64,000 bases of DNA from Lampropedia hyalina DSM 16112 (GTDB lineage: Bacteria > Pseudomonadota > Gammaproteobacteria > Burkholderiales > Burkholderiaceae_C), in NCBI RefSeq assembly GCF_900129055.1, contig NZ_FQUZ01000001.1, positions 62,001 through 126,000 on the forward strand. Reading direction: 5' to 3'. How positions within the stretch are numbered: the first letter of the stretch is position 1; each line of letters starts with the position of its first letter. Of the stretch, positions 5,993 through 26,538 are shown piece after piece. Under the pieces are notes generated by a model. The model was not told where the DNA came from and searched no databases. It was given only the letters and a program-made list of their open reading frames with translations. Made by a program: the position numbers and the translations under genes.

Positions 5993-7582
5993 TTGCCTGT
6001 GCCGAACCCCGTAGCGAGCAGACGCTCTGCCCCCACTGCCCTGCGCCTGCTCTCCCTGCTGGTGGGCCTGTGCATGGCCCTGCCGCTGGGGTATCTGCTG
6101 CTGCGTGCCCTGCAGGGAGATGCGGCACAGGCAGTGGCACTGCTGTGGCGTGGCCGCACGCTGCAACTGCTGGGCAACACCGTGGCACTCACGGCCGGGG
6201 TACTGCTGCTGGCCACGCTGATCGCCTTTCCGCTGGCCTGGCTGGTGGTGCGCAGTGACCTGCCGGGACGCAGGCTGCTGCTGTGGCTCTCCATCCTGCC
6301 GCTGGCCGTGCCCGGCTATGTCATGGCCTACGCGCTGATTGGCCTGAGCGGCCACTACGGCTTCCTGAACCAGTTGCTGGGTCTGCGCATCGCCCGGCTG
6401 GAGGGGCTGGCAGGGGCCACGCTGGCCCTTGGCCTCTACACATTCCCGTATCTTTTTCTGAACCTGCGCAGTGCGTTGCTGGCGCAGGATGCTGCCCTGC
6501 TGCACAGTGCCCGCAGCCTGGGGCATGGCCCCTGGTCGTGTTTCTTCAGGGTGAGCCTGCCGGGGCTGCTGCCTGCCCTGGCGGCGGGCTGGCTGGTGAT
6601 TGCCCTCTACACGCTGGGGGACTTTGGCGCGGTCGCGCTGATGCGCCTGGATGTCTTCAGCTCTGCCATGTACAGCCAGTACCACAGCGGGTTTGAAGTC
6701 CGGCAGGCCGCCTGGCTGGCCCTGATGCTGCTGGGCATGACGGGGGCCACCATTGCCCTGTTCCGCCAGATTCCCACCCACCCCAGACCGGAACGCAGCG
6801 GCCTGGGCGTTGCCGCCCGACACCAGCCGGTGCGCCTGGGCCGCTGGCAGGCACTGGCATGGGTTTTCATCGTGCTGGTGGTGCTGGCCTCCGTCGGCCT
6901 GCCGCTGGCAGTGACGCTGTTCTGGCTGTCGCGGGCCACCACCGCACTGGATGCCCCGGCCCTGTGGAACAGCATCTGGCAAACCGCCTCGCTGGCACTG
7001 CCCACCGCCGCTGTGGCCACGCTGCTGGCCCTGCTGTGCGCCACACTGGCGGCCTGGTGGCCAGGGCGCAATGCCGACATGCAGGAGCGGGCCATCTACT
7101 TCGGCTACGCGATACCGGGGCTGCCGCTGGCCCTGGCAGTCGCCTTCTTCAGCCTGCACACCATCCCCGCCCTCTACCAGTCCCATGCCGTGCTGGTGCT
7201 GGCCTACTGCATCTCCTTCATGGCACTGGCCTACGGCCCAATCAAGAACAGCCTGATGCAGACGGGCCGAAAAATGCACGACTCCAGCCTGATGCTGGGC
7301 GTTTCGCCCGGCCGCTCGTTCTGCCGCATCACACTGCCGGTCATCCGCCCGGCGGTCTTCGGTGGCGGAGCACTGATCCTGCTCATGGTCATCAAGGAAC
7401 TGCCCATCACCTACCTGCTGGTTCCCATCGGCATCCGCACGCTGTCGATGGAGGTTTTCAGCCGCACCAATGAAGGCATGATGCTGCAAGCCGCGCACTA
7501 CGCCCTGCTGCTGATGGCGTTTTCCAGCCTGTTCATGGGCCTGCTGCTCTGGCAGCAGAATCAAAGGAGCCAGAGTGCCTGA
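5993..7582 (+). CDS. fbpB: Ferric-iron ABC transporter permease
   Basis: The 529-residue permease has two homologous halves, each with a binding-protein-dependent transport domain, and about twelve membrane segments in all. This is the fused arrangement usual for FbpB. EAA-like loops that contact the ATPase are visible near LHSARSLGHGPWSCFFRVSLP (first half) and MLGVSPGRSFCRITLP (second half). The first possible start codon is TTG at 5993; a GTG at 5999 is equally plausible and neither has a clear ribosome site. The 3' end overlaps the start of fbpC by 8 bp, so the two are probably translationally coupled. Confidence 0.9.
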   Translation: MPVPNPVASRRSAPTALRLLSLLVGLCMALPLGYLLLRALQGDAAQAVALLWRGRTLQLLGNTVALTAGVLLLATLIAFPLAWLVVRSDLPGRRLLLWLSILPLAVPGYVMAYALIGLSGHYGFLNQLLGLRIARLEGLAGATLALGLYTFPYLFLNLRSALLAQDAALLHSARSLGHGPWSCFFRVSLPGLLPALAAGWLVIALYTLGDFGAVALMRLDVFSSAMYSQYHSGFEVRQAAWLALMLLGMTGATIALFRQIPTHPRPERSGLGVAARHQPVRLGRWQALAWVFIVLVVLASVGLPLAVTLFWLSRATTALDAPALWNSIWQTASLALPTAAVATLLALLCATLAAWWPGRNADMQERAIYFGYAIPGLPLALAVAFFSLHTIPALYQSHAVLVLAYCISFMALAYGPIKNSLMQTGRKMHDSSLMLGVSPGRSFCRITLPVIRPAVFGGGALILLMVIKELPITYLLVPIGIRTLSMEVFSRTNEGMMLQAAHYALLLMAFSSLFMGLLLWQQNQRSQSA

Positions 7583-8627
7583 AACCCCCACCCCTGCCCT
7601 GCTGCACCTCATGAACGCCAGCAAATGCTACGGCAGCAACCGCGCGGCATGGAATGCCAGCCTGCGCGTGGCACGCGGTGAAATTCTGGTACTGCTGGGG
7701 CCATCGGGCAGTGGCAAGTCCACCATCCTGAAACTGATTGCCGGACTGGAAGACCTCGACGACGGGCAAGTCTGGCTCAACGGCCAGAACATCGGCCACC
7801 TTCCCCCGGAACAACGCGGAATCGGCATGGTGTTTCAGGACTACGCACTGTTTTCCCACATGACCGCCTTGCAGAACGTCATGTTTGCCCTGCACCGGCA
7901 GCCCCGGCCACGCCGCCCAAAAATGGCCCTGGAACATCTGGCCATGCTGGGCATGGCGGATTTTGCCCAGCGTTACCCCCACCAACTCTCCGGCGGCCAA
8001 CAGCAACGCGTCGCCGTGGCCCGCACCTTCGCCAGTGCCCCGCAACTGATCCTGCTCGACGAACCCTTCTCCAGCATCGACGAATCCATGCGCGCCCATG
8101 CCCGGCAGGAAATCCGCGCCATCCTGCGCCAGTCGGGCCTGGGGGTCGTCATGGTCACGCACGACTGCACCGAAGCCCTGTCCTTTGCCGACACCATCTG
8201 CGTCATGAACCAGGGAACGATCATCCAGACCGCCACCCCGCAAGACATTTACCTGCACCCTGCCAATGCGTTTGTCGCCAGCTTCATCGCCCCCACCAAC
8301 CTGTTGCCTGCCCACATCCACAACGGCCATGCCCATTGCATCCTGGGCACATACCCCGTGGCCGCACAGAACCGCGATACAGAACAGGCATGGCTCTCCA
8401 TCCGCCCCGAATCCCTGAGCATGGAAGCCGCCAGCAGCACACAGGCTGGCCCACAGGGCATTGTCGAAAGCACCGAATTCAGAGGCGACTGCCAATTCCA
8501 CACCGTGCGCATCGGCGCACAAACCTGCACCGTGCGCAGTGCCATCGGCCCCAGCTTCCAGCCAGGAGACCGGGTACAAGTGCGCCCATGCAGCCCCGAA
8601 TCACTGGTGGTACTGGCCCGCCAGTGA
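7575..8627 (+). CDS. fbpC: Ferric-iron ABC transporter ATPase
   Basis: This 350-residue ATPase has Walker A GPSGSGKST at residues 42-50, the signature LSGGQQQR at about 138-145 and Walker B LILLDEP at about 157-163. A C-terminal TOBE-type regulatory domain follows from about residue 240. It hydrolyses ATP to drive iron import through the FbpB permease. The GTG start at 7575 is supported by AAAGGAG seven bases upstream, inside the end of fbpB. Length and order match fbpABC operons; related ions or putrescine cannot be fully excluded, but the binding protein favours ferric iron. Confidence 0.92.
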   Translation: MPETPTPALLHLMNASKCYGSNRAAWNASLRVARGEILVLLGPSGSGKSTILKLIAGLEDLDDGQVWLNGQNIGHLPPEQRGIGMVFQDYALFSHMTALQNVMFALHRQPRPRRPKMALEHLAMLGMADFAQRYPHQLSGGQQQRVAVARTFASAPQLILLDEPFSSIDESMRAHARQEIRAILRQSGLGVVMVTHDCTEALSFADTICVMNQGTIIQTATPQDIYLHPANAFVASFIAPTNLLPAHIHNGHAHCILGTYPVAAQNRDTEQAWLSIRPESLSMEAASSTQAGPQGIVESTEFRGDCQFHTVRIGAQTCTVRSAIGPSFQPGDRVQVRPCSPESLVVLARQ

Positions 8628-13444: not shown

Positions 13445-14164
13445 TCACAGCTCGGCGTTGTGGAATACATCCTGCACGTCGTCGAGGTCTTCGATCACGT
13501 CCAGCAGCTTCTGCATTTTCTCGGCATCTTCGCCTTCGAGGGCGATGGTGTTGTCGGCGCGCATGGTGACTTCGGCCACTTCGGCGACCAGTCCGGCGGC
13601 CTGCAAGGCGGCTTGCACGACCTCGAATTCCGTCGGCTCGGTCAGCACCTCGATGGCCCCTTCGTCGTCGGTGATGACATCGTTCGCACCGGCTTCGAGG
13701 GCGACTTCCATCACCTTGTCTTCATCGGTGCCGGGGGCGAAAATGAACTGCCCCACGCGCTGGAACTGGAAGGCCACAGAGCCTTCCGTGCCCATGTTGC
13801 CGCCGTACTTGCTGAAGGCGTGGCGCACTTCGGCCACGGTGCGCTGGCGGTTGTCGGTCATGGTCTCAACAATGATGGCCGCGCCGCCGATGCCATAGCC
13901 TTCGTAGCGGATTTCCTCGTAGGTCACGCCTTCGAGGTTGCCGGTGGCCTTGTCGATGTTGCGCTTGATGTTGTCGGCAGGCATGTTGGCGGCCTTGGCC
14001 TTGTCGATGGCCAGGCGCAGGCGCGGATTGGCCGCCGGATCGCCGCCACCGGCGCGGGCAGCCACGATAATCTCACGGATGAGGCGTGTCCAGATGCGCC
14101 CTCTTTTCTCGTCCTGCCGCCCCTTGCGGTGCTGAATGTTTGCCCACTTGCTATGACCTGCCAT
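13445..14164 (-). CDS. YebC/PmpR family protein
   Basis: The 239-residue protein starts [22 protein letters not shown] and has the acidic middle domain typical of the family, with [16 protein letters not shown]. Members act as DNA-binding regulators, and some as ribosome-associated factors that relieve stalling at polyproline; which role applies here cannot be read from the sequence. The gene precedes purD by 69 bp and diverges from hsdM. Confidence 0.93.
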
Positions 14165-14296
14165 GATGCTGTCCAGTCCTTGAACCTGTGCGTTGATCGT
14201 TGAAACAAGCCTGTTATTTTATGGCAAGGCCGTACCTGCCCGAACACACGCCCTGGAACTGCTGCACCGATAAAGCCCGAACCCTCCCAACCTGGC

Positions 14297-16027
14297 ATGA
14301 AACCCATCACCCAACAATTCTTCACTGATCTGGAAAAAAAGCTCTGGACCGCCGCCGACAAACTGCGCTCCAACCTCGATGCCGCCGTGTACAAGCACAT
14401 CGTGCTCGGGCTGATTTTCCTCAAATATGTGTCCGATGCCTTCGAAGAACGGCAGCGCGAACTGCGCGAACAGTTCACCCACCCGGAACATGACTACACC
14501 ATGGACCCAGACCAATACGGCGGCGCGGGTACGCAGGAATACGAAGAAAACATTGCCGCCGAGCTGGAAGTGCGCGACTACTACACCGAGAAGAACGTGT
14601 TCTGGGTGCCTGTGGAAGCCCGTTGGCAGACCCTGCGCGATTGCGCGCAACTTCCGCCCAAAGCACCACTGCCCTGGAACAAGCCGGGCAAGGACGAGCC
14701 GGAGGAAATGCGCTCGGTCGGCTGGCTGATCGACAACGCCATGGAAGCCATCGAGCGCGAGAACGCCCGCCTGAAGAACGTGCTCAACAAAGACTTCGCC
14801 CGCGTGCAGCTCGACTCCAGCAAACTGGCTGGGCTGATTGGCCACTTCTCGGATACCGACTTCGCTTCCCGTGAATACAAGGGCCAGCCGCTGGACCTGA
14901 AATCCAAGGACATCCTCGGTCACGTTTACGAATACTTCCTTGGCCAGTTCGCCCTGGCCGAAGGCAAGAAGGGCGGCCAATACTACACGCCCAAAGCCAT
15001 CGTCACCCTGATCGTGGAAATGCTCCAGCCCTTCAAGGGCCGCGTATATGACCCGGCCATGGGCTCCGGCGGCTTCTTCGTGCAGAGCGAGGAATTCGTC
15101 GAACGCCATGCCGGGCAGATCAAGAACGGCAAAAACGGCAAGCGCGACATCAGCGTCTACGGGCAGGAGAGCAACCCCACCACCTGGCGGCTGGCCGCCA
15201 TGAACATGGCCATTCGCGGTATCGATTTCAACTTCGGCAGCGGCCACGCCGATACTTTGCTGAACGACCTGCACCCCGACTTGCGCGCCGACTTCGTCAT
15301 GGCCAACCCACCCTTCAACATGAAGGAATGGTGGAATGAAAAACTTAGCCAAGACCCGCGCTGGATTGTCGGCACGCCACCACAGGGCAATGCCAACTTT
15401 GCCTGGTTACAGCACATGTTGCACCACTTGGCCCCCACCGGCAGCATGGCACTGCTGCTGGCCAATGGTTCCATGAGTTCCAACACCAACAACGAAGGCG
15501 AAATCCGCAAACGGCTGGTGGAAGACGATTATGTGGAGTGCATGGTTGCACTACCCGGCCAGTTGTTCACCAACACCCAGATTCCCGCCTGCATCTGGTT
15601 CCTGACCCGCGACAAATGCAACGGCTTTGCGCTGAACAAGAAGAAACGCGACCGGCGCGGCGAGTTCCTGTTCATCGACGCGCGTCAGATGGGCTACATG
15701 AAAGATCGCGTGCTGCGCGATTTCACCGCCAACGACATCCAGAAAATCGCCGACACCTTCCATGCTTGGCAGCAGGGCGAGGGGTATGAGGATATACCCG
15801 GCTTCTGCCATTGCGCCAAGCTGGACGAAATCCGCAAGCATGAGCATGTACTCACACCGGGGCGTTATGTCGGCGCGGCGGAGCAGGAAGATGACGGCGA
15901 ACCCTTTTCAGAGAAAATGCAGCGGCTCACAAAGCAACTGGCCGATCAGTTCGCGCAGAGTGCCAAGCTGGAAGCGGAGATCAGAAAGAACCTTGTGGGG
16001 TTGGGGCATGAGGTGACATTGCCATGA
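14297..16027 (+). CDS. hsdM: Type I restriction-modification methyltransferase subunit
   Basis: The 576-residue protein has the HsdM N-terminal helical domain (about 1-150) and an N6-adenine methyltransferase domain. That domain holds motif [11 protein letters not shown] at about residues 252-261 and motif IV NPPFN at about 336-340. With HsdS it methylates adenines in the recognition sequence. The last 35 residues, beginning [11 protein letters not shown], recur as degraded copies at 17913 and 18801. The stop codon overlaps the next gene's start as ATGA. It is the first gene of an expanded hsd operon diverging from the YebC-family gene. Confidence 0.96.
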
Positions 16028-17916
16028 CTGCACTGGAACTGCTGGAACGCCTCAATCTGCTTGATGAAAACGAGCGCATCGAAGCCAAATCCGCCAGCGA
16101 GGTCGGTAAATCCCTGCTGGAAACGGTCTGTGCTTTCGCCAATGAACCTGGTCTGGGTGGCGGCTGGCTGCTGCTGGGCGTAGCACGCGAAGAGCTTTCC
16201 TTGTTCCCCGCCTATGAGGTGCAAGGCATCGAACAGCCCGACAAAATCAGTGCCGATCTGGCCAGCCAGGCTACCAGCGTGTTCAATCGCCCCCTGCGGC
16301 TGGAAATCCAGACCGAATCCCTCAACGATCAGGCCGTCATCGCAGTGTTTGTGCCTGAAGCTGCGCCACAGGACAAACCGATTTTTCTGAAAGCGCAAGG
16401 TCTGCCACGTGGAGCCTTCCGGCGCATTGGCAGCACCGACCAACGCTGCACCGAAGACGATTTGCTGTTGCTCTATCAAGGCCGACAGACGGAAAGTTTT
16501 GATGCGGGGCTGCTGCCCGATGGCACGCTGGATGATTTTTCACCGGAAGCCATCGAGGACTACCGCCAGTCCCGTCGCGAAGCCAACCCCGATGCCGAAG
16601 AACTGCGCTGGAACGATCATGATCTGTTACAGGCACTGGGTGCTATCCGTCTGAACGAAAAAGGCCAGTGGCAGCCCACCGTCGCGGGCCTGCTGCTGTT
16701 TGGCAAACCTGTCGCGCTGCGTCGCAGCTTTCCCATGACACGGGTGGACTACATCCGCGTGCCGGGCCGTGAATGGGTGCCAGACCCTGAGCGCCGCTTC
16801 GACAGCATCGAACTGCGCGACCCCTTGTTTCGCCTCATTCGCCGGGTGCAGGCCGCCATTCTGGACGACTTGCCCAAATCCTTCGGTCTGACAGAAGGAG
16901 ACTTGCAGCGACAGGACAGCCCGGTGGTGCCGCAGCGCGTCATCCGTGAAGCCGTGGTCAACGCCCTGATGCACCGCAGTTACCGCAGCCATGCGCCGGT
17001 ACAAATTATTCGCTACAGCAACCGGCTGGAAATACGCAATCCCGGCTTTTCTCTCAAATCCCCCGAGCACCTGGGCGAGCCTGGTTCCCTGCCGCGCAAC
17101 CCCAAGTTGGCCGCCGCTCTGTACGACACCCGCTTTGCCGAAACCAAGGGCAGCGGCGTGCGCGTCATGCGGGAAATGTGCGAACAGGCCGGGTTGGCCC
17201 CACCGCTGTTCGAGTCCGACCGCAGCAACGACAGCTTCGTCATTCGCCTCTTCTTCCACCACTTTCTGGGGGCGCAAGACTTGGCATGGCTGGGCCAGTT
17301 CAAAGCCCTGCAACTCACCGAAGCCGAAGCCCGTGCATTGGTGGTAGCGCGCGAAGCTGGCGCTCTCGACAACGCCACCTGGCGTGAAATCAACCGGGTG
17401 GACACCCTCACTGCCAGCCACGGCCTGAAAAAACTGCGCGATGCCGGCCTGCTCCAGCAAAACGGCAAAGGCTCCGCCACCTGGTATCAGCCCACCGCCC
17501 TGATGATGGGGCAGGACAGCAACCCCGACACCTTATCCAGTAACCCCGACACCTTATCCAGTAACCCCGACACCTTATCCAGTAACCCGCCGGGCTTATC
17601 CAGTAACCCGGATTCCGCCAGTGAATTGGCAAGGCGCGCGCTGCTCAATGAGTTACAAGGGGAGTTGGCGGCCCGGATTGGCAGCCTTGGAAAACGCGGC
17701 ACGCCCGAAGACATACAGGAAGTGGTGGTAGCCCTGTGCCGGTATCGAAGCTATCGGGCCGAGGAGCTGGCCCAACTGTTGGCCCGCAATATTGAAACCG
17801 TGCGCCAAAGCTACCTGCGGCCCCTGCTGCGCGATGGCCGCATCCGCATGACCCGGCCGGAAAAACCCAACGACCCGGAGCAGGCCTATCGGACGGTGCA
17901 AGGAGGGGAAGCATGA
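16024..17916 (+). CDS. AlbA_2 (Schlafen AAA_4)-type ATP-binding protein, R-M linked, no. 1
   Basis: The 630-residue protein has an N-terminal AlbA_2/divergent AAA_4 domain (about 10-130, with [10 protein letters not shown] and GGGWLLLGV). A GHKL-like ATPase segment follows, with N box [13 protein letters not shown] near 308-320, [10 protein letters not shown] near 335 and [10 protein letters not shown] near 375. A winged-helix region comes next, then a repeat linker of SSNPDTL units (about 500-530) and a further C-terminal helical domain. Such proteins are frequent R-linked ORFs in type I loci; their function is unsettled, with regulatory or defensive roles proposed. It overlaps hsdM and the mini-ORF at 17913 by 4 bp each, indicating coupling. 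Confidence 0.85.
17521..17604 (+). repeat. 21-bp tandem repeats inside the first AlbA_2 gene
   Basis: Three perfect copies of a 21-bp unit (AACCCCGACACCTTATCCAG plus T) are followed by one degenerate copy and a partial copy beginning at 17605. Each unit encodes NPDTLSS. The unit length is a multiple of three, so copy-number change would alter the linker between the ATPase and C-terminal domains without shifting the frame. Confidence 0.95.
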
Positions 17917-18035
17917 AGATTGCGATGAAACAGAAGCAGCGGCTCACAAAGCAACTGGCGGAACAGTTTACGGAAAGTGCCAAGCTGGAAACGGAAATCA
18001 AGAAGAATCTGGCGGGGTTGGGGTATGGGGTCTAA
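17913..18035 (+). CDS. Mini-ORF, duplicated hsdM 3' end (40 aa)
   Basis: The 40-codon frame contains [20 protein letters not shown] and IKKNLAGLGYG, which align almost residue for residue with the end of HsdM ([31 protein letters not shown]). At DNA level the first 23 bases are identical and the rest is about 80% alike. The ATG overlaps the preceding gene's stop as ATGA. The frame is followed by AAGGAG and the hepT start 17 bp later. It is most likely a remnant left by a recombination event at the hsdM 3' end; whether the peptide has a function is unknown. It may keep ribosomes flowing to downstream genes. Confidence 0.75.
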   Translation: MKIAMKQKQRLTKQLAEQFTESAKLETEIKKNLAGLGYGV

Positions 18036-18051
18036 TCAAGGAGTACGCACC

Positions 18052-18483
18052 ATGTCATTGAATGTTGAACATCTGCGGCGCACGGCTGACACCCTGCAAG
18101 AGGCCATTACCCGACTGGCTGCTGTGGCGTCCGAGCAAGATACGCTCTACGACCTGTTTCGCAATGCTGCCGTCAAGAGCTTTGAACTTTCGCTGGAAAC
18201 TACCGGGAAACTGTTGCGCAAGGCACTGAAACTCTACGGCGGCAGCCCGCGCGAAGTGGACAGACTGGTATTCAAGGACTTGTTTCGCCATGCCAGCAAA
18301 CATGGTTTGCTGGATGAAGCCGCCGTGGAACGCTGGTTTGCCTACCGCGCCAATCGCAACACGACGGCGCACGATTATGGCGTGGGCTTTGCCAATGAAA
18401 CGCTGAAAATTCTGCCAGCCTATTTGCAGGATGTGCGAGCACTGGCCGACGCGCTTCAGGAGCTGTTCGATGCACAGTCGTGA
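18052..18483 (+). CDS. hepT: HepT-like HEPN toxin of a HepT-MntA module
   Basis: The 143-residue all-helical protein belongs to the HI0074/HEPN family. The catalytic RNase motif RX4HXY is present as R102-NTTA-H107-D-Y109. In characterised systems HepT is an RNA-cleaving toxin neutralised by the adjacent nucleotidyltransferase, which AMPylates the motif tyrosine. AAGGAG lies about 8 bases upstream of the ATG. It overlaps mntA by 14 bp and lies inside the hsd operon between hsdM and hsdS, suggesting an addiction or alarm role linked to restriction; that link is inference. Confidence 0.88.
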   Translation: MSLNVEHLRRTADTLQEAITRLAAVASEQDTLYDLFRNAAVKSFELSLETTGKLLRKALKLYGGSPREVDRLVFKDLFRHASKHGLLDEAAVERWFAYRANRNTTAHDYGVGFANETLKILPAYLQDVRALADALQELFDAQS

Positions 18484-18808
18484 TATTGGCCGATTGCAGA
18501 TGAAGCCACGGCATCTGGCCATGCTGCAAGCCTTGCTGGCCCAGCAAGCCTCACAAGCACAAGTTTGGGCATATGGCAGCCGTGTCAGCGGCAACGCGCA
18601 TGAAGGCAGTGATTTGGACATCGTATTGCGTAACCCCTCCAACCTGAAAGCCGAAGTGCCGAACTGGATGGAGGTGCAAGAGGCCATTCAGGAAAGTGAC
18701 TTGCCCATGCTGGTGGATGTGCATGACTGGGCGCATTTGCCAAGCGATTTTCGGCGCAATATCGAGCGTAACTATGTAGAAATACAGGTGGGGGCAGTTG
18801 ATGAATAA
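18470..18808 (+). CDS. mntA: MntA-like minimal nucleotidyltransferase antitoxin
   Basis: The 112-residue protein has the nucleotidyltransferase signature GS(36-37)...SD(48)LD(50) within GSRVSGNAHEGSDLDIV. Both metal-binding aspartates are present, as in MNT antitoxins that AMPylate HepT. A third acidic residue in MLVDVHDW is also in the expected place. The start ATG 18470 lies within the end of hepT, typical of the coupled toxin-antitoxin pair. Its own 3' end overlaps the next mini-ORF start by 8 bp. Confidence 0.88.
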   Translation: MHSRDIGRLQMKPRHLAMLQALLAQQASQAQVWAYGSRVSGNAHEGSDLDIVLRNPSNLKAEVPNWMEVQEAIQESDLPMLVDVHDWAHLPSDFRRNIERNYVEIQVGAVDE

Positions 18809-18878
18809 GAAAATGGTGCTGGTGGAGCAGCTTGCAGCGATTAAGAAGAATTTGGTGAGGTTTGGATATGGCTTTTGA
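18801..18878 (+). CDS. Second mini-ORF resembling the hsdM 3' end (25 aa)
   Basis: The 25-codon frame ends in AAIKKNLVRFGYGF, matching the end of HsdM ([11 protein letters not shown]) and even more the first mini-ORF (IKKNLAGLGYG). Its start lies inside mntA and its last 11 bases overlap the start of hsdS, so it bridges the two genes in the way hsdM normally overlaps hsdS. It is probably a shorter, more degraded hsdM-tail remnant. A separate function is not shown. Confidence 0.65.
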   Translation: MNKKMVLVEQLAAIKKNLVRFGYGF

Positions 18879-20247
18879 ATGGAGCGAGTACGCATTTGGT
18901 GAGCTTTGCACTATTACAAGAGGAGCCTCGCCTCGTCCGATCAATGCGTTCCTGTCAAAGACTGGAATGCCGTGGATAAAAATCGCGGATGCGACTAGCT
19001 CAGATTCCAGATTTCTGGAAACAACCAATGAGTGCATAAAACTGGAAGGCGTTAAATCAAGTGTCCGGGTCTTTCCTGGGGATTTGATTCTTTCAAATAG
19101 TGCAACTCCAGGGTTACCTAAATTTGTGATGATTGAAGCTTGTATCCATGACGGGTGGATGTTGTTGAGAAAATTCAAAGGGCTTGATAAAAACTTTGCA
19201 TATTGGCTACTTATTAATGAAAGAAAAACCCTTATTGCGCAGGGAAATGGATCGGTTTTTACAAATCTCAAAACTGACATTCTAAAACTTCATCGCGTGA
19301 GAATTCCAGATTTAGCAACCCAATTCAAAATCGCACAAATCCTTGATCCAATTGCTGTAAAAATCGACCTCAACCGCCGCATCAACCAAACCCTCGAAGC
19401 CATGGCGCAAGCCATCTTCAAGTCCTGGTTTGTCGATTTCGATCCGGTTAAGGCCAGGATCTCTGCCATCAAGCAAGGCGAAGACCCACTGCGCGCCGCT
19501 ATGCGTGTCATCAGCGGCAAGACCGACGCAGAACTCGACCAGATGCCCCGCGAGCATCACGACCAACTCGCCGCCACCGCCGCGCTGTTTCCCGATGCAA
19601 TGGAAGAGTCGGAGTTGGGGGAGATTCCGAAGGGATGGAAAGTATCAACGATTGGTGAAACGGTGGAAATCGCCGGTGGAGCAACACCAGATACCAAGAA
19701 TGAGTCCTACTGGAACCCGCCAGAGCACTTCTGGACTTCCCCCAAAGACTTATCAGGGGTTCAATCTCCTGTTCTTCTGACTACGGAAAGAAAAGTCAGC
19801 ACCGCAGGCTTGTCGCGTATTGGTTCTGGACTGCTTCCAAAAGGAACGCTGCTGATTTCTTCGCGCGCTCCCATCGGGTACTTGGCAATCACTCAAGTGC
19901 CTGTTGCGATCAATCAGGGATACATTGCGATGTTGCCTGGTGGAAAATTGCCGCCTTTGTATTTGCTCATGTGGTGCCAACAGAATATGGAAGAAATCAA
20001 AGGGCAGGCAAACGGCTCTACCTTTATGGAGATCAGCAAAAAAGCATTTCGGCCCATGTTGATAATCAACCCTGGATCAATTTTGCTAGATAGGTTTTTG
20101 GGGGTCGTCGCCCCCTTGTTCGGAAAGCTCGTTGAAGGAGTCAAGGAATCTTCCCAATTGGCCGAACTCCGCGACACACTCCTTCCCAAACTCCTCTCCG
20201 GCGAGTTGTCAGTGGCCGATTTGGATAAAGAGGCGGCTTTGTCATGA
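18868..20247 (+). CDS. hsdS: Type I restriction-modification specificity subunit
   Basis: The 459-residue protein has two target-recognition domains (about 1-150 and 245-400), each followed by a conserved helical spacer. The spacer reads QFKIAQILDPIAVKIDLNRR after the first and QLAELRDTLLPKLLSGEL at the end. The first domain is encoded by visibly AT-richer DNA than the rest, a common sign of domain exchange between strains. The ATG at 18868 has GTGAGG upstream; a TTG at 18862 is possible. The bipartite target sequence cannot be predicted. The stop overlaps the next gene as ATGA. Confidence 0.95.
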   Translation: MAFEWSEYAFGELCTITRGASPRPINAFLSKTGMPWIKIADATSSDSRFLETTNECIKLEGVKSSVRVFPGDLILSNSATPGLPKFVMIEACIHDGWMLLRKFKGLDKNFAYWLLINERKTLIAQGNGSVFTNLKTDILKLHRVRIPDLATQFKIAQILDPIAVKIDLNRRINQTLEAMAQAIFKSWFVDFDPVKARISAIKQGEDPLRAAMRVISGKTDAELDQMPREHHDQLAATAALFPDAMEESELGEIPKGWKVSTIGETVEIAGGATPDTKNESYWNPPEHFWTSPKDLSGVQSPVLLTTERKVSTAGLSRIGSGLLPKGTLLISSRAPIGYLAITQVPVAINQGYIAMLPGGKLPPLYLLMWCQQNMEEIKGQANGSTFMEISKKAFRPMLIINPGSILLDRFLGVVAPLFGKLVEGVKESSQLAELRDTLLPKLLSGELSVADLDKEAALS

Positions 20248-21653
20248 CCATCACCGCCGACCAAATCGACCTCTGGCGCAGCAGCGCCTCGGAAACCCAG
20301 AATCTGGAATTCAAGGAAGCCAAAAACCAATACGACACCAAAAAGCTGTGCCGCTATTGCGTGGCGATTGCCAACGAAGGCGGCGGGCACTTGGTGCTGG
20401 GCATTGCGGACAAGCCACCCCGACCTGTGGTGGGTAGCGAGGCTTTTCCGGATACGCAGGACATTGCCGAAAAGCTGTTCCAGTGGCTGGGCTTTCGTGT
20501 AGATGTGGAAGCCGTCGCGCATCCCGACGGGCGGGTGGTGGTGTTCATCATTCCAGGGCGGCCCAAAGGCACGGCCTACCACTACGACGGTGCCTACCTG
20601 ATGCGCTCGGGCGAGGAACTGGTGCCGATGAGCGAGGATCAGTTGCGCCGCATTTTTGCTGAGGGACAGCCCGATTGGCTGGAGTTTCCGGCACTCAGGG
20701 ATGCATCGGCGCAGGACGTGGTGCAGTTGCTCGATACGCAGGCGTTCTTCGACTTGCTGCATCTGCCGTACCCCACCGATCAGGCCGGTGTGCTGGCCCG
20801 CTTGCTGGATGAGCGATTGATCGAGCGCAGTACGTCGGGCTTCCATATTCTGAACATTGGCGCAGTCTTGTTGGCCAAGAGCCTGCGCAGCTTCCCAGGC
20901 ATCAGCCGCAAGGCGGCTCGGGTGATTGTGTATGCGGGCGAGTCCAAGATGCAGACCGTGTCCGATCAGACAGGCGAAAAAGGCTATGCGGTGGGCTTCA
21001 CGGGGCTGGTGCAGTACGTGATGGGCAAGCTGCCGCAGAACGAGGTGATCGAAGATGCCATTCGCAAGGAGATCAAGCTGGTGCCGGAAGTGGTGATCCG
21101 CGAGCTGCTGGCCAATGCCCTGATCCATCAGGACTTCGAGATGGGCGGTGCATCGCCGACGGTCGAGGTGTTTTCCAATCGTGTGGAAATCGCCAACCCC
21201 GGCGAGCCGATCGTGCCGGTGGAGCGGTTCATCGACGGCTACCAGTCGCGCAATGAGCGGCTGGCCGATCTGATGCGCCGGTTCGGTATATGCGAGGAAA
21301 AAAGCAGCGGCATCGACCGTGTGATCGAGGCCGCCGAACTGATGCAGTTGCCTGCGCCGGAGTTTTTGACGGGCCACAAGCGCACCACCGTGGTGATCCA
21401 TGGGCCGCGCTCGTTCCGTGACATGAACGGAAGCGACCGCGTGCGGGCCTGCTACCAGCACTGCGTGTTGCAGTACGTGCTGCGCAGGCAGATGACCAAC
21501 CAGTCGCTGCGTGAGCGCTTCGGCCTGTCCGAAGGCAGCAGCAACACGGTGTCGCAGATCATCACTGCCACCATCGAGCAGGGCTTGGTCAAGAACGACC
21601 CCAACGCGCCGGACTCGCGGCGCTACGCCAGATACATCCCGGCATGGGCATGA
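20244..21653 (+). CDS. AlbA_2 (Schlafen AAA_4)-type ATP-binding protein, R-M linked, no. 2
   Basis: The 469-residue protein starts with an AlbA_2 domain (SETQNLEFKEAKNQYD and ANEGGGHLVLGI at about 15-55). A middle domain follows, then a GHKL-like ATPase segment with N box IRELLANALIHQDF near 288-301, NRVEIANPGEP near 315 and EEKSSGIDRVI near 355. A C-terminal helix-turn-helix region (SLRERFGLSEGSSNTVSQII) suggests DNA contact. It has the same architecture as the gene at 16024 but is clearly divergent, so it is a separate acquisition rather than a recent duplicate. It is translationally coupled to hsdS; 124 bp separate it from hsdR. Confidence 0.85.
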   Translation: MTITADQIDLWRSSASETQNLEFKEAKNQYDTKKLCRYCVAIANEGGGHLVLGIADKPPRPVVGSEAFPDTQDIAEKLFQWLGFRVDVEAVAHPDGRVVVFIIPGRPKGTAYHYDGAYLMRSGEELVPMSEDQLRRIFAEGQPDWLEFPALRDASAQDVVQLLDTQAFFDLLHLPYPTDQAGVLARLLDERLIERSTSGFHILNIGAVLLAKSLRSFPGISRKAARVIVYAGESKMQTVSDQTGEKGYAVGFTGLVQYVMGKLPQNEVIEDAIRKEIKLVPEVVIRELLANALIHQDFEMGGASPTVEVFSNRVEIANPGEPIVPVERFIDGYQSRNERLADLMRRFGICEEKSSGIDRVIEAAELMQLPAPEFLTGHKRTTVVIHGPRSFRDMNGSDRVRACYQHCVLQYVLRRQMTNQSLRERFGLSEGSSNTVSQIITATIEQGLVKNDPNAPDSRRYARYIPAWA

Positions 21654-21777
21654 GTCATTTCATTACAAACCGGGCTGGGTCAGCGCGGCACGTACAACAC
21701 ATTGATTTGCATGGAATTTTCATTTCATTGCAAACCGAAGATGGCCGCAGCGGGGCCCGATCAGGGGGACAATATTT
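21654..21777 (+). promoter_or_regulatory. hsdR leader with paired 17-bp direct repeats
   Basis: The gap before hsdR contains CATTTCATTACAAACCG at 21656 and CATTTCATTGCAAACCG at 21720, differing at one base. This is the only non-overlapping junction between hsdM and hsdR besides the hepT leader. A separate control point for the endonuclease would fit the need to delay restriction after methylation, but no promoter was confirmed. Confidence 0.35.
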
Positions 21778-24700
21778 GTGAGCATCACCGAACAACAACT
21801 TGAAGGCACCACCATCGGCTGGTTCCAGCAGTTGGGCTGGCAGTACGCCAACGGCTCCGAGATTGCACCCGACGGCGATCAGCCTGCCCGTACCGACTAT
21901 CGGCAAGTGGTACTGCGCGAGCATCTGCTGGCCGCATTGGTACGGATCAATCCACAGATTCCAGCCGCTGCGCTGGAGCAAGCTGCGCACGAACTGCTGA
22001 CGGTAAATGAGCCGCTGCTGATCGCCCGCAACCGCCATGTGCATCGGTTGTTGCTGTCCGGCATTCCGGTCGAGTTTTCCGTGGGCGACGAGAAACGCAC
22101 CGACCTGGTCAACCTGATCGACTTTGCCGAACCGCGCAACAACGACTTCCTGCTGGTCAGCCAGTTCACGGTGACCGGCACCAGGCAGCCGCGCCGTCCC
22201 GATCTGGTGGCCTTCGTCAACGGCCTGCCGCTGGCGGTGATCGAGTTGAAGAACCCGGCCAACGAGCAGACCGACATCTGGGATGCCTTCAACCAGATCC
22301 AGACCTACAAGGATGAGATCAGCGACCTGTTCAACACCAACGTGGCGGTGGTGGTCAGCGACGGCTTCACGGCGCGGTTGGGGTCGCTGACGGCCAATCA
22401 GGAGCGCATGCAGCCCTGGCGGGCGATTGCCAATGAGGACGACCGGCCGCTGCTGGAATTCGAGCTGGAAACGCTGGTGCGCGGTTTCTTTGCGCCTGAG
22501 CTGTTTCTCGATTACGCGCGCCACTTCGTGCTGTTCGAACAAGATGCCGACCACATCGTCAAGAAGATCGCCGGCTACCACCAGTTCCATGCGGTGCGCG
22601 AGGCGGTGAAGGCGACGGTGATTGCTGCCCGCAATCTGGACAAGGGCGTGCTGGAAGTGCAGGAGCCGCGTGCCACCTATGGCAAAGAGGTGCAGCCCGG
22701 CAGCCGCAAGGCGGGCGTGGTGTGGCACACGCAAGGCTCGGGCAAGAGCATCACCATGGCCTGCTATGCGGGCAAGCTGTTGCAGCAGCCGCAGATGAAG
22801 AACCCCACGCTGGTGGTGGTGACCGACCGCACCGATCTGGACGGGCAGTTGTTCGGCACGTTCTGCGCTGCCGAAGATTTGCTGAAGCAGACGCCAGTGC
22901 AGGTGGGCAGCCGTGAGAAACTGCGCGAGTTGCTGGCTTCGCGCGAGGCGGGTGGCATCATCTTCACCACGGTGCAGAAGTTTGCTCTGCTGGATGACGA
23001 GGAGCGACACCCGTTGCTGTCGGATCGCAGCAATATCGTGGTGATTTCCGACGAGGCGCACCGCAGCCAGTACGGCATGAAGGGGCGGCTGGACACCAAG
23101 ACGGGAAAGTATGTGTTCGGCTACGCCAAGCACCTGCGCGACGCGCTGGCCAATGCCACTTTCATCGGCTTCACCGGCACGCCCATCGCGCTGGAAGACA
23201 AGGACACGCGGGCGGTGTTCGGCGATTACGTCAGCATCTACGACATTCAGGATGCAGTGGAGGACAAGGCCACGGTGCCGATCTTCTACGAAAGCCGTCT
23301 CGCCAGACTGGACGTGAATCAGGCCGAGATCGACGCGCTGAATGCTCAGGTGGATGAGGTCATCGAGGACGAGGAAGACCTCACCGCCCGCGAGAAGACC
23401 AAGAGCGACTGGGCGCAACTCGCCAAGCTGGTGGGCGCACAGCCACGGCTGGAACAGGTGGCAGCGGATTTGGTGCAGCACTTCGAGACGCGCACGGCCA
23501 CGCTGGAAGGCAAGGCGATGATCGTGTGCATGAGCCGCGACATCTGCGCCGAGCTGTACAACGCCATTGTTGCCTTGCGCCCGGACTGGCACGATGCCGA
23601 CCCGGAGAAGGGCGCGATCAAGGTGGTGATGACCGGCTCAGCGGCGGACAAGGCATTGCTGCAACCGCACCTGACCAGCCAGCAGGTGAAGAAACACCTG
23701 GAAAAACGCTTCAAAGACCCGGCAGACCCTTTGCAGTTGGTGATCGTGCGCGATATGTGGCTGACGGGCTTCGACGCACCCTGCTGCCACACCATGTATG
23801 TGGACAAGCCCATGAAGGGCCACAACCTGATGCAGGCCATTGCCCGCGTCAATCGGGTGTTCCGCAACAAGCCCGGTGGTTTGGTGGTGGACTACATCGG
23901 GATTGCCAACGAACTGAAAGCGGCACTCAAGACCTACACAGAGGCCAAGGGCAAGGGCGATCCGGCGCATGATGCGCGTGAAGCCCTGGCGGTGCTGCTG
24001 GCCGAGCTGGATGCTGTGCGCGGGCTGATGCACGGCTTCGACTATCAACGCTTCGAGACCGACGCGCTGCAACTGCTGGTTCCGGTAGCCAACCACATCC
24101 TTGGCCTGAAGGACGGCAAGCAACGGTTTCTGGACATGATGCTGCGCGTCAGCAAGGCGTTTTCGTTGTGCAGCACGCTGGATGAGGCCGCCGCACTGCG
24201 CAAGGAGATTGCCTTCTTCGCTGCCGTGAAGGCCGCCATCGTCAAGTTCACTACGGTGAACAGCAAGCTTGCCGATGCCGACAAGAACAGCATGCTCAAG
24301 CAGATTCTGGACAATGCCATCGTGGCCGATGGGGTGGCAGATATCTTTGCGCTGGCGGGCCTGGACAAGCCCAACATTGGCCTGCTGTCGGAAGAGTTTC
24401 TGGAAGACGTGCGCAATATGCCCAGCCGCAACCTGGCGGTGGAGCTGCTGGAAAAGCTGTTGCGCGACGAGATCAAGGCACGAGCGCGCAACAACGTGGT
24501 GCAGGAGAAGAAATACGGCGACCGCCTGCTGGAAACCTTGCGCAAGTACCACAACCGGGCGGTGGAGACGGCGCAGGTCATCGAGGAGCTGATCCAGATG
24601 GCCAAGGACTTGCAGGCAGCACTGGAGCGCGAAGCCGCGCTGGGGCTGACCCCGGATGAGATCGCCTTCTACGACGCGCTGGCAAACAACGAAAGCGCGG

Positions 24701-24930
24701 TGCGCGAGCTGGGCGACGACACCCTGAAAAAGATCACTGTCGAGATTACCGAGAAACTGCGCAGCAGCACCACGGTGGATTGGCAGGTGCGCGAGAGTGT
24801 GCGGGCGAAGCTGCGGATTCTGGTGCGACGCACACTGAAGAAGTGGAAGTACCCGCCGGTGGGTGAGGATGCCGCAATCGAACTGGTGCTGAAGCAGGCG
24901 CAGTCGCTTTCAGACCACTGGTCGCGCTGA
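21778..24930 (+). CDS. hsdR: Type I restriction endonuclease subunit
   Basis: The 1050-residue subunit has the PD-(D/E)XK nuclease segment [20 protein letters not shown] near residues 140-160. A superfamily 2 translocase follows, with Walker A HTQGSGKS near 317-325, [11 protein letters not shown] near 424-434 and GFTGTP near 463. A long C-terminal helical part binds the HsdM2S core. It translocates DNA with ATP and cuts unmethylated targets at a distance. The start is GTG at 21778. The stop TGA lies directly against a family B repeat end at 24929-24950. Confidence 0.96.
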
Positions 24931-24960
24931 GATCGTGAACAGGTTCTTAGGGAAGGCCAT
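24929..24960. repeat. Solitary family B end followed by a family A-like end
   Basis: GAGATCGTGAACAGGTTCTT matches the right end of the family B elements (for example GATCGTAAACACGTTCTAAG at 50711). It is directly followed by TTAGGGAAGG, like the outer end of family A. No complete element follows, so this is a remnant at the end of the hsd operon. Confidence 0.6.
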
Positions 24961-25020
24961 CGGCCCGGCGCGGCTACACTTGAACAGTATCGTTTCTGTT
25001 TTTTCCAGCTGAAAGCCACC

Positions 25021-26538
25021 ATGCCTGCTCCTTTGTCGATTGCCCAGAATGACCATACCCGGTGCCTGCTGTTGCCGGGGTTTGCCAACCGCCACGGTCT
25101 GATTGCCGGGGCCACCGGAACCGGCAAGACCGTGACCTTGCAGAGTCTGGCCGAGCAGTTCTCGCGTCTGGGGGTGCCGGTGTTCATGGCAGATGTGAAG
25201 GGCGATCTGGCGGGCATCAGCCAGCCCGGCAGCATGGGTTCCAAACTGGCGCAGGTGCTGGCGCAGCGCGGCATGGAACCGCCCGCACCCTTTGCCGCGC
25301 CGGTAACGCTGTGGGATATTTTCGGGCAGCAGGGGCATCCGGTGCGGGCGACGGTGTCCGATCTGGGGCCGCTGCTGCTGGCGCGGATGCTCAACCTCAA
25401 CGATACGCAGGCGGGCATTCTGAACATTGTGTTCGAGGTGGCCGATGACGATGGCCTGCTGCTGCTCGATCTGAAGGATTTGCGTGCCATGTTGCAGCAC
25501 GTTGCCGACAAGGCCAGCGAGTACCGCACCACCTACGGCAACATCAGTGCCGCCAGTGTGGGGGCGATTCAGCGCGCGCTGCTGCAACTGGAGCAACAGG
25601 GAGCCGACCAGTTCTTCGGCGAACCCATGCTGGACATTGCCGACTTTCTGCAAACCGATGGGCAGGGGCATGGCGTGGTGAACATTCTCGCGGCCGACCA
25701 GCTCATGAACGCGCCGCGTCTGTACGCGACCTTTCTGCTGTGGCTGCTGTCGGAGCTGTTCGAGCACCTGCCCGAGGCGGGCGATCTGGACAAGCCCCGG
25801 CTGGTGTTCTTTTTCGACGAGGCGCACCTGCTGTTCAACGACGCGCCCAAGGTGCTGCTGGAGCGCATCGAGCTGGTGGTGCGGCTGATTCGCTCCAAGG
25901 GCGTGGGCGTGTATTTCGTCACGCAAACGCCCAGCGATATTCCCGACAGCGTGCTGGCGCAACTGGGCAACCGGGTGCAGCACGCGCTGCGTGCCTTCAC
26001 GCCACGCGACCAGAAGGCGGTGAAAGCGACGGCGCAAACCATGCGGCCCAATCCCGGTGCGCACCTGGACATTGAACGCGCCATCACCGAGCTGGCCGTG
26101 GGCGAGGCCCTGGTGAGTTTGCTGGACGAGAAGGGCAGTCCCAGCCCCACCGAACGCGCCTTCGTCATTCCGCCCGGCAGTCAGATCGGCCCCATCACGA
26201 CCGCGCAACGCCAGCAGCTGCGGGCGCAATCGCTGGTGGCGGGCGTGTATGAAGCCAGCGTGGACCGGGAATCGGCCTACGAGATTTTGCAGGCCCGCTC
26301 TGCCAAGGCCTTGCAGGAAGCCGAAACCGCCCGCCAGCAGGACGAACAAGGCGGTGGCGTGGGGGGCATGGTGAGCGATTTCCTGTTCGGCAGCACCGGC
26401 CCGCGTGGCGGCAAGCGCGATGGGCTGGTGCAATCGGTCATCAAGTCCACCGTGCGCACCCAGGCGAACCGGCTGGGGCGGCAGTTGCTGCGCGGCGCGC
26501 TGGGCAATCTGCTGGGCGGGGGCAAGAGCCGCCGCTGA
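25021..26538 (+). CDS. YjgR-like HerA-type ATPase (DUF853)
   Basis: The 505-residue protein has Walker A GATGTGKT near residues 29-36 and Walker [13 protein letters not shown] near 260-272, with the DUF853 pattern [15 protein letters not shown] after the first strand. The family resembles HerA/FtsK-type hexameric ATPases, but its cellular role is not established. The C-terminus is basic and glycine-rich. The gene starts 90 bp after hsdR, behind a repeat remnant. It is common outside restriction loci, so association with the R-M operon is probably incidental. Confidence 0.88.

Follow-up and report, generated by a model that had tools for sequence, protein, structure and literature searches.

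The stretch analysed here (the window) is 64,000 nucleotides (nt) of DNA from Lampropedia hyalina DSM 16112 (contig NZ_FQUZ01000001.1, positions 62,001 to 126,000 of the forward strand). At 14297-24930, on the plus strand, it carries a type I restriction-modification (R-M) operon, with hsdM, hsdS and hsdR together and in intact frames (Pfam and PADLOC matches). The function of the locus as a type I R-M system is assigned by family. The gene order is hsdM - AlbA1 - T2 - hepT - mntA - T3 - hsdS - AlbA2 - hsdR, in which T2 and T3 are very short open reading frames (mini-ORFs) that resemble the 3' end of hsdM (T1). The features, including the extra genes called 'cargo' here, are as follows.

14297..16027, plus strand: hsdM, 576 amino acids (Pfam N6_Mtase, 1.5e-110, and HsdM_N)
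15919..16014, plus strand: T1, the 3'-terminal stretch of hsdM that is repeated downstream
16024..17916, plus strand: AlbA1, a cargo gene with Pfam SLFN_AlbA_2 and HATPase_c_4 domains, its start overlapping the hsdM stop (ATGA)
17913..18035, plus strand: T2, mini-ORF of 40 codons, putative hsdM-tail relic (matching stretch 17936-18031), its ATG overlapping the AlbA1 stop (ATGA)
18052..18483, plus strand: hepT-like toxin gene (Pfam NTase_sub_bind, 1.2e-17; RX4HXY motif, RNTTAHDY)
18470..18808, plus strand: mntA-like antitoxin gene (Pfam Polbeta/NTP_transf_2; GSX10DXD motif)
18801..18878, plus strand: T3, mini-ORF of 25 codons, putative decayed hsdM-tail relic, overlapping the mntA stop (18808) and holding the hsdS ATG (18868)
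18868..20247, plus strand: hsdS, 459 amino acids (Pfam Methylase_S, 2.7e-32)
20244..21653, plus strand: AlbA2, a second cargo gene with Pfam SLFN_AlbA_2 and HATPase_c_4 domains, between hsdS and hsdR
21778..24930, plus strand: hsdR, 1050 amino acids (Pfam HSDR_N, SWI2_SNF2 and T1RH-like_C)

An earlier note on this DNA, made from the sequence alone, had reported that the end of hsdM recurs after the first AlbA_2 gene, and this is confirmed. T1 and T2 align without gaps at 81 of 96 nt (84%), with identity in all 24 leading bases and in 57 of the remaining 72. Their local score of 117 compares with a maximum of 32 in 2000 Markov shuffles (0/2000), and chance similarity or an hsdM-unrelated repeat was rejected as the origin of T2. 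When the window was scanned in tiles, plus-strand scores above 28 were confined to tiles over T1 or T2 and the reverse strand gave at most 25 (top 12 tiles per strand). The T1/T2 differences number 4, 3 and 8 at codon positions 1, 2 and 3, with non-synonymous (dN) and synonymous (dS) rates of 0.12 and 0.43 (dN/dS about 0.28). The third, shorter tail that the note had placed after hepT-mntA is also there, in a weaker form. T3 matches T2 (26 of 32 nt, a score equalled by 1 of 2000 shuffles) and resembles HsdM tails by protein: p is 0.01 against the resident HsdM tail (0.05 by DNA; 200 shuffles), and its raw BLOSUM score against 84 non-redundant HsdM tails is 44, compared with a maximum of 42 in 40 shuffles. 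It has no direct DNA match to T1 (score 16, reached by 832 of 2000 shuffles). Its placement, overlapping the mntA stop and enclosing the hsdS ATG, is the register found in other loci. Above-chance similarity to HsdM C-termini together with register with the next start was thus found for both mini-ORFs, strongly for T2 and modestly for T3; neither matched a Pfam family.

To survey such pieces elsewhere, we used 79 loci with an hsdM relative from genome contigs (from the best 80 of at least 587 candidates) and 41 from viral contigs (loci are designated by L numbers and genomes by G numbers). Together with the window, this set includes 119 loci with hsdM and 106 with both hsdM and hsdS, and in 22 of the 106 (21 and the window) at least 100 nt separate the two genes. 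An enlarged set, including loci from whole-genome searches, has 127 loci with both genes, 98 without a gap and 29 with one by the same limit; L028, whose 'tail' proved to be the terminus of a disrupted hsdM, was removed, leaving 28. A piece was scored as positive when none of 40 shuffles of its region reached its score. An hsdM-tail piece at the start of hsdS was found in 11 of the 28 gapped loci (L039, L049, L055, L106, L109, L165, L168, L169, L170, L174 and the window). The proposal of the earlier note, that cargo came in more than once at the 3' end of hsdM, is supported for the window, and the same holds for other loci with different cargo. Six of the 28 had been retrieved through tail or hepT matches (L163, L165, L168, L169, L170 and L174, of which five are positive), so a fair rate is given only by the gapped loci retrieved through hsdM alone, 5 of 21.

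L170 was retained in the count despite its disrupted hsdM frame, while neither L077 nor the L060 fragment, a piece of tail at the end of the cargo, was scored as positive. L171 (G269), with a tail piece before hsdS on a contig that ends without hsdM, was left outside the counts, and the short hsdM-like ORFs with broken hsd frames in G528 (L172) and G555 (L175) were not used as pieces. In a scan of the loci with their own hsdM tails nothing exceeded 40 on the reverse strand, compared with six pieces at 75-125 (L008 just 46); plus-strand matches of 38-50 scattered away from hsdS (for example, 50 in L110 within hsdR) were read as background. A second tail match within 5 kb occurred in G000 alone among 200 family genomes (34 with any match, E <= 0.001), in G000, G251 and G284 among 369 class genomes (42 with any match, E <= 0.01) and in G000 alone among 378 phylum genomes (38 with any match). 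These counts are low, as the limits miss decayed pieces such as T3 and those of G167 (L165) and G191 (L174), both in the family sample. Among short-frame tail matches, that in G719 is an out-of-frame hsdM end, G693 has hsdM in two frames followed by a weak HepT-like ORF near the contig end, and the weak match in G761 has no hsd gene near it. Finally, in L185 (G684; reverse strand, about 6000-7100) an orphan tail piece immediately precedes hepT-mntA, and no hsdM was found in the 11 kb retrieved. This unit is downstream of a transketolase-looking gene, and short similar direct repeats seem, by eye, to flank it.

The pieces share a common right end, and their left ends vary (14 to 56 codons). In those examined base by base the hsdS ATG lies inside the last codons of the piece. 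The exceptions are L039 (12472-13950), where the piece is fused in frame to HsdS, and L170 (about 8440-8620), where a cargo frame ends in an in-frame fusion with the hsdM tail, which contains the hsdS ATG. Among the 98 gapless loci, 96 have an hsdS frame that begins no later than the final base of the hsdM stop, and in the other two it begins 1 and 49 nt after. In the 16 hsdM-fetched gapped loci that have no piece, the upstream stop overlaps the hsdS start in 13, the exceptions being L067 (2 nt apart), L058 (22 nt apart) and L076. Overlaps are perhaps overcounted, since each hsdS was assumed to begin at the earliest start codon of its frame. Whatever precedes hsdS tends to run into the hsdS start. 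The frame of the piece itself is not always kept: in L165 and L174 the cargo gene reads through it in another frame, the L174 piece has no stop at the usual place, and in L060 the tail fragment is interrupted by other sequence. In L076 (an Eikenella metagenome-assembled genome) frames are repeated between hsdM and hsdS, and the DNA there has a stretch of N.

Where do the pieces come from? Twelve of them (L170 not included) were compared with 138 HsdM tails, a few of which are from the same locus fetched twice. The rank of the tail of the piece's own operon, by protein and by DNA respectively, was 16 and 3 for T2, 54 and 90 for T3, 10 and 7 for L039, 8 and 7 for L049, 101 and 96 for L055, 1 and 1 for L106, 18 and 4 for L109, 2 and 1 for L168, 10 and 37 for L169, 2 and 4 for L174, and 9 and 31 for L165 (L171 has no hsdM); the shortness of the pieces makes these ranks noisy. 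The resident hsdM is the best DNA match in just two of the 11 pieces that have one. Two pieces are clearly foreign, L169 (own 20, best 46) and L055 (own 10, best 38), and L165 (own 17, best 33) points in the same direction. Given the much closer match of the L169 and L055 pieces to other hsdM lineages, tail pieces probably did not arise as duplicates of the hsdM in their own operon. When 11 pieces were compared with the best tail of another locus, mismatches numbered 46, 47 and 91 at codon positions 1, 2 and 3, a codon-position bias that we take as a sign that the sequences diverged while coding, which hsdM ends would be expected to do.

Some joints are compound, clearly so in L055 and probably so in L034. 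In L055 hsdM is followed by a relative of AlbA1, then by an hsdS N-terminus of 33 codons, an hsdM tail of at most 19 codons, and hsdS itself. A search with the hsdS head gave one hsdS among the local sequences (E 0.006), and its two plasmid matches (E <= 0.1) are both annotated as restriction subunit S. Between hsdS and hsdR, L034 has a long ORF that looks P-loop-like by eye, followed by about 72 residues of an hsdR head, then an 18-nt stretch and then AlbA2. The 18-nt stretch is identical at 16 positions to the 3' end of the window hsdS, one base off register, and the hsdS part of this scar is suggestive. A search with hsdS tails mostly retrieved the operons' own hsdS and was not used. Pieces of hsdR head were found in 4 of 91 loci (L034, L124, L125 and, weakly, L140) and in none on the reverse strand. 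In L124 (6062-6244) and L125 (5984-6166), which are nearly identical contigs from a viral collection, an hsdR N-terminal fragment lies upstream of the full hsdR with another ORF between them. The order seen in these compound scars, the head of the next gene followed by the tail of the previous one, would arise by one-sided replacement, because the incoming block would end inside its own next gene and be joined inside the resident preceding gene. The fusion of tail and cargo in L170 reads as another join of the same kind.

We therefore favour, with a probability of roughly 0.58, the explanation that T2 and T3 are what remains of the 3' ends of previous hsdM genes, left when hsdM together with cargo replaced the front of the operon. 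In homology-facilitated illegitimate recombination, demonstrated by transformation experiments, one side of the incoming DNA recombines by homology and the other is joined illegitimately. The scheme proposed here has the same one-sided form, deduced in this case from the joints. Incoming DNA with its own hsdM and cargo would replace the front of a resident type I operon, presumably by homologous crossing-over on the left side and by an illegitimate join on the right. The right-hand join can be read in L055 and, less surely, in L034, and would be similar in the window. If the join lies within the tail of the resident hsdM, only some 14-56 codons at the end of that older gene would be left, preserved because the start codon of the next gene is inside this tail. 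The tail piece would keep the next gene in translation-coupled register: the overlap is seen directly, coupling is known for EcoKI, and selection for the overlap is what we would expect. In the window an older event would have left hepT-mntA and T3 before hsdS, and a later event would have brought the present hsdM and AlbA1 and left T2 before hepT; the T3 event is placed first because T3 is more decayed.

A broader statement is held more tentatively, at a little under an even chance. This is that scars of displaced core-gene 3' ends (sometimes with incoming next-gene 5' ends) record the number and order of cargo acquisitions, and that the hsdM 3' end is the preferred joint, because the start codon of the next gene lies inside it, in at least three hsdM lineages and with unrelated cargo families. 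If this is true, the acquisition history of each operon could be read from its sequence scars, and genome scans could find embedded cargo by tail relics rather than by known families.

The cargo found between hsdM and hsdS is diverse. It includes AlbA_2 genes, HepT-MntA, a YhcG/DUF1016 nuclease (L038 and L049), an Abi_2-like gene (L174) and an HTH-Peptidase_M78 gene (L083). By sequence look only, YhcG-like genes (L163 and L168), a DUF4258/YgiT-like pair (L169) and an ORF6N-like piece (L106) are also present. In the window the HepT/MntA pair consists of adjacent HEPN and MNT genes in which RX4HXY and GSX10DXD, as defined in PMC7641770, can be read. With 19.8 bits for HepT and 32.0 for MntA, both are below the NCBIfam HepT_toxin and MntA_antitoxin equivalog cut-offs (60 bits each), and they are classed by these scores as relatives, not equivalogs. 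Compared with the window, hepT is 85.3% and hsdM 59.4% identical in L163, and 67.8% and 85.4% identical in L039; by these values the histories of hepT and hsdM disagree. The hepT-mntA pair occurs with three different hsdM backgrounds. In L163 it is present with no detectable tail piece, and in L038 it is upstream of hsdM with no tail copy, YhcG occupying the position between hsdM and hsdS. The earlier note had named the occurrence of the same genes without tail copies as evidence against its view; L163 (hepT 85% identical) and L038 are such loci, while 11 of the 28 gapped loci do carry a piece. Strong relatives of AlbA1 are rare (2 of 369 class genomes, G000 itself and G271, E <= 1e-60), and no useful ones were found in viral contigs, nor in plasmids at E <= 1e-40. 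Among the 119 hsdM loci, 2 (the window and L055) have an AlbA1-like gene (>300 bits), 7 have an AlbA2-like gene (>300 bits) and 5 have HepT matches.

In three loci an MntA-type domain, with a readable GSX10DXD, is fused to the HsdS N-terminus (L037, 12180-13883; L098, 12178-13773; L102, 12107-13822). The ORF upstream was recognised as HepT-like by search in two of them (L037 and L102) and by its look in L098. These fusions suggest a way to tie a toxin-antitoxin pair to the presence of the specificity subunit. If the fusion is active, loss of HsdS would remove the MntA antitoxin, and the HepT/MntA pair would thus guard the R-M system. No description of an MntA-HsdS fusion was found, by title or abstract start, in the literature searched.

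Several observations weigh against relic hsdM ends, and some of them favour duplication in situ, as the earlier note had supposed in calling the tails duplicated. In that case insertion at the hsdM 3' end, by unequal crossing-over or by Campbell-type integration of a cargo-tail circle, would copy the tail, and the copy would provide homology for the next module. The identity between T1 and T2, above all in the 24 leading bases, fits such copying or a later conversion; the window's own hsdM is third of 138 tails for T2 by DNA (66 compared with 72 for the best), close to a tie. By DNA, the L106 and L168 pieces match the hsdM of their own operon best, and in L185 the tail directly before hepT-mntA looks as if tail and cassette had moved together, although L185 could equally well be a decayed operon. 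The exact precursor of the window (hsdM - hepT-mntA - T3 - hsdS at high DNA identity) was absent among the loci fetched. No piece was detectable in 17 of the 28 gapped loci, where cargo can evidently sit without one, and the claim that every insert is closed by an hsdM-tail copy is contradicted. With 40 shuffles per locus about 0.7 of 28 positives are expected by chance, T3 being the positive closest to the limit, and the hsdS-tail part of L034 consists of 18 nt only and by protein matched nothing but itself. Copying of the tail is nevertheless unlikely in our view, as the L169 and L055 pieces are from other hsdM lineages and neither the hsdS head of L055 nor the hsdR head of L034 is expected from it.

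We consider it improbable that the mini-ORFs are retained for their peptide, a free HsdM C-terminal helix that would bind HsdS or tune assembly. In its favour, the T2 frame is uninterrupted and similar to the usual HsdM tail, the T1/T2 dN/dS ratio is low, L039 has its in-frame fusion, and in the EcoKI model the HsdM C-terminus is near the HsdS N-terminus (PMC3510504). The coding pattern, however, may be mere inheritance from hsdM, and the read-through in another frame in L165 and L174, the missing stop in L174, the fusion to cargo in L170, the broken piece in L060 and the decay of T3 do not suggest a preserved peptide. We give equally little credence to the whole locus being one integrated composite defence system with parts acting together. 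It would suit the several stop/start overlaps between genes, the lack of promoter-like sites on the plus strand and the MntA-HsdS fusions. AlbA1 and HepT, however, occur together in the window only, 1 of the 119 hsdM loci, and on this co-occurrence a conserved composite system, which the earlier note had thought might exist as a unit, was rejected. AlbA2 and HepT are also found apart, and hepT-mntA appears on its three hsdM backgrounds and, in L038, upstream of hsdM. The two AlbA_2 ATPase-like genes and HepT/MntA are probably independent modules, and in function the operon probably combines type I R-M with anti-phage or addiction modules that are separate and exchangeable, and is not one new machine. 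Chance similarity, or a repeat unrelated to hsdM, might be considered for T3, which is weak when taken alone, and in view of the scattered plus-strand matches away from hsdS; as a general explanation it is barely credible given the T1/T2 shuffles and the clean reverse strand.

To our knowledge, how embedded defence genes enter type I operons and stay in phase with the core genes is not settled. Embedded cargo itself is already known. The rlo and mlo genes of Campylobacter jejuni type I loci are additional ORFs located in the hsdR-hsdS and hsdS-hsdM intervals (Miller et al. 2005, as cited in PMC5183652). They resemble the window in lying between core genes and differ from it in that the available part of PMC5183652 describes no hsdM-tail relics or joint scars. 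TgvAB is a GmrSD-like type IV restriction pair embedded in a type I R-M operon which alone protects 10- to 100-fold less than the whole cluster against several phages (PMC11411939). Like the window, this is a second defence module nested in a type I operon (an active one in the case of TgvAB); unlike the window, the cargo is different and no tail relics are described in the available part of that paper. In EcoKI, as here, the hsdM 3' end overlaps the hsdS start, with coupled translation, and capture of an HsdM tail by HsdS has been proposed for type IB (PMC3510504). Such a transfer resembles the L039 fusion, but the proposal concerns subunit evolution and not cargo entry, whereas here the tail pieces stand alone after cargo. 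HepT/MntA with RX4HXY and GSX10DXD is an RNase toxin with an AMP-transferring antitoxin (PMC7641770). The window pair shares both motifs and differs in its location inside a type I operon and in its scores below the equivalog cut-offs, while in L037, L098 and L102 the antitoxin domain is fused to HsdS. The truncated hsdM in PMC6805111 concerns, in the part available, something else. In searches by title and abstract start, mainly of freely accessible literature, no description of hsdM-tail relics after cargo was found; novelty is not thereby proven.

Stop and start codons overlap at several joints of the operon. On the plus strand of 14150-25050 no promoter-like site was found, and there is one on the minus strand (shuffle mean 3.5). 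A dedicated integrase or transposase moving the cargo was rejected, as there was none among the nine gene products of 14297-24930 run against Pfam. On its two sides the operon has what we take to be yebC and a gene for a HerA-like ATPase (like purD below, both were named by protein appearance). The HerA-like gene is present in all ten genus genomes searched, and the stretch beside it was retrieved from eight of the other nine. In L177 (G666) of the same genus the HerA-like gene adjoins yebC (and purD), and the site that bears the operon in the window is empty. In the other seven stretches the HerA-like gene alone was recognised, that of L180 being just 1.4 kb long. Within AlbA1, a 21-bp tandem repeat of 4.4 copies (17517-17609) encodes a repeated NPDTLSS linker.

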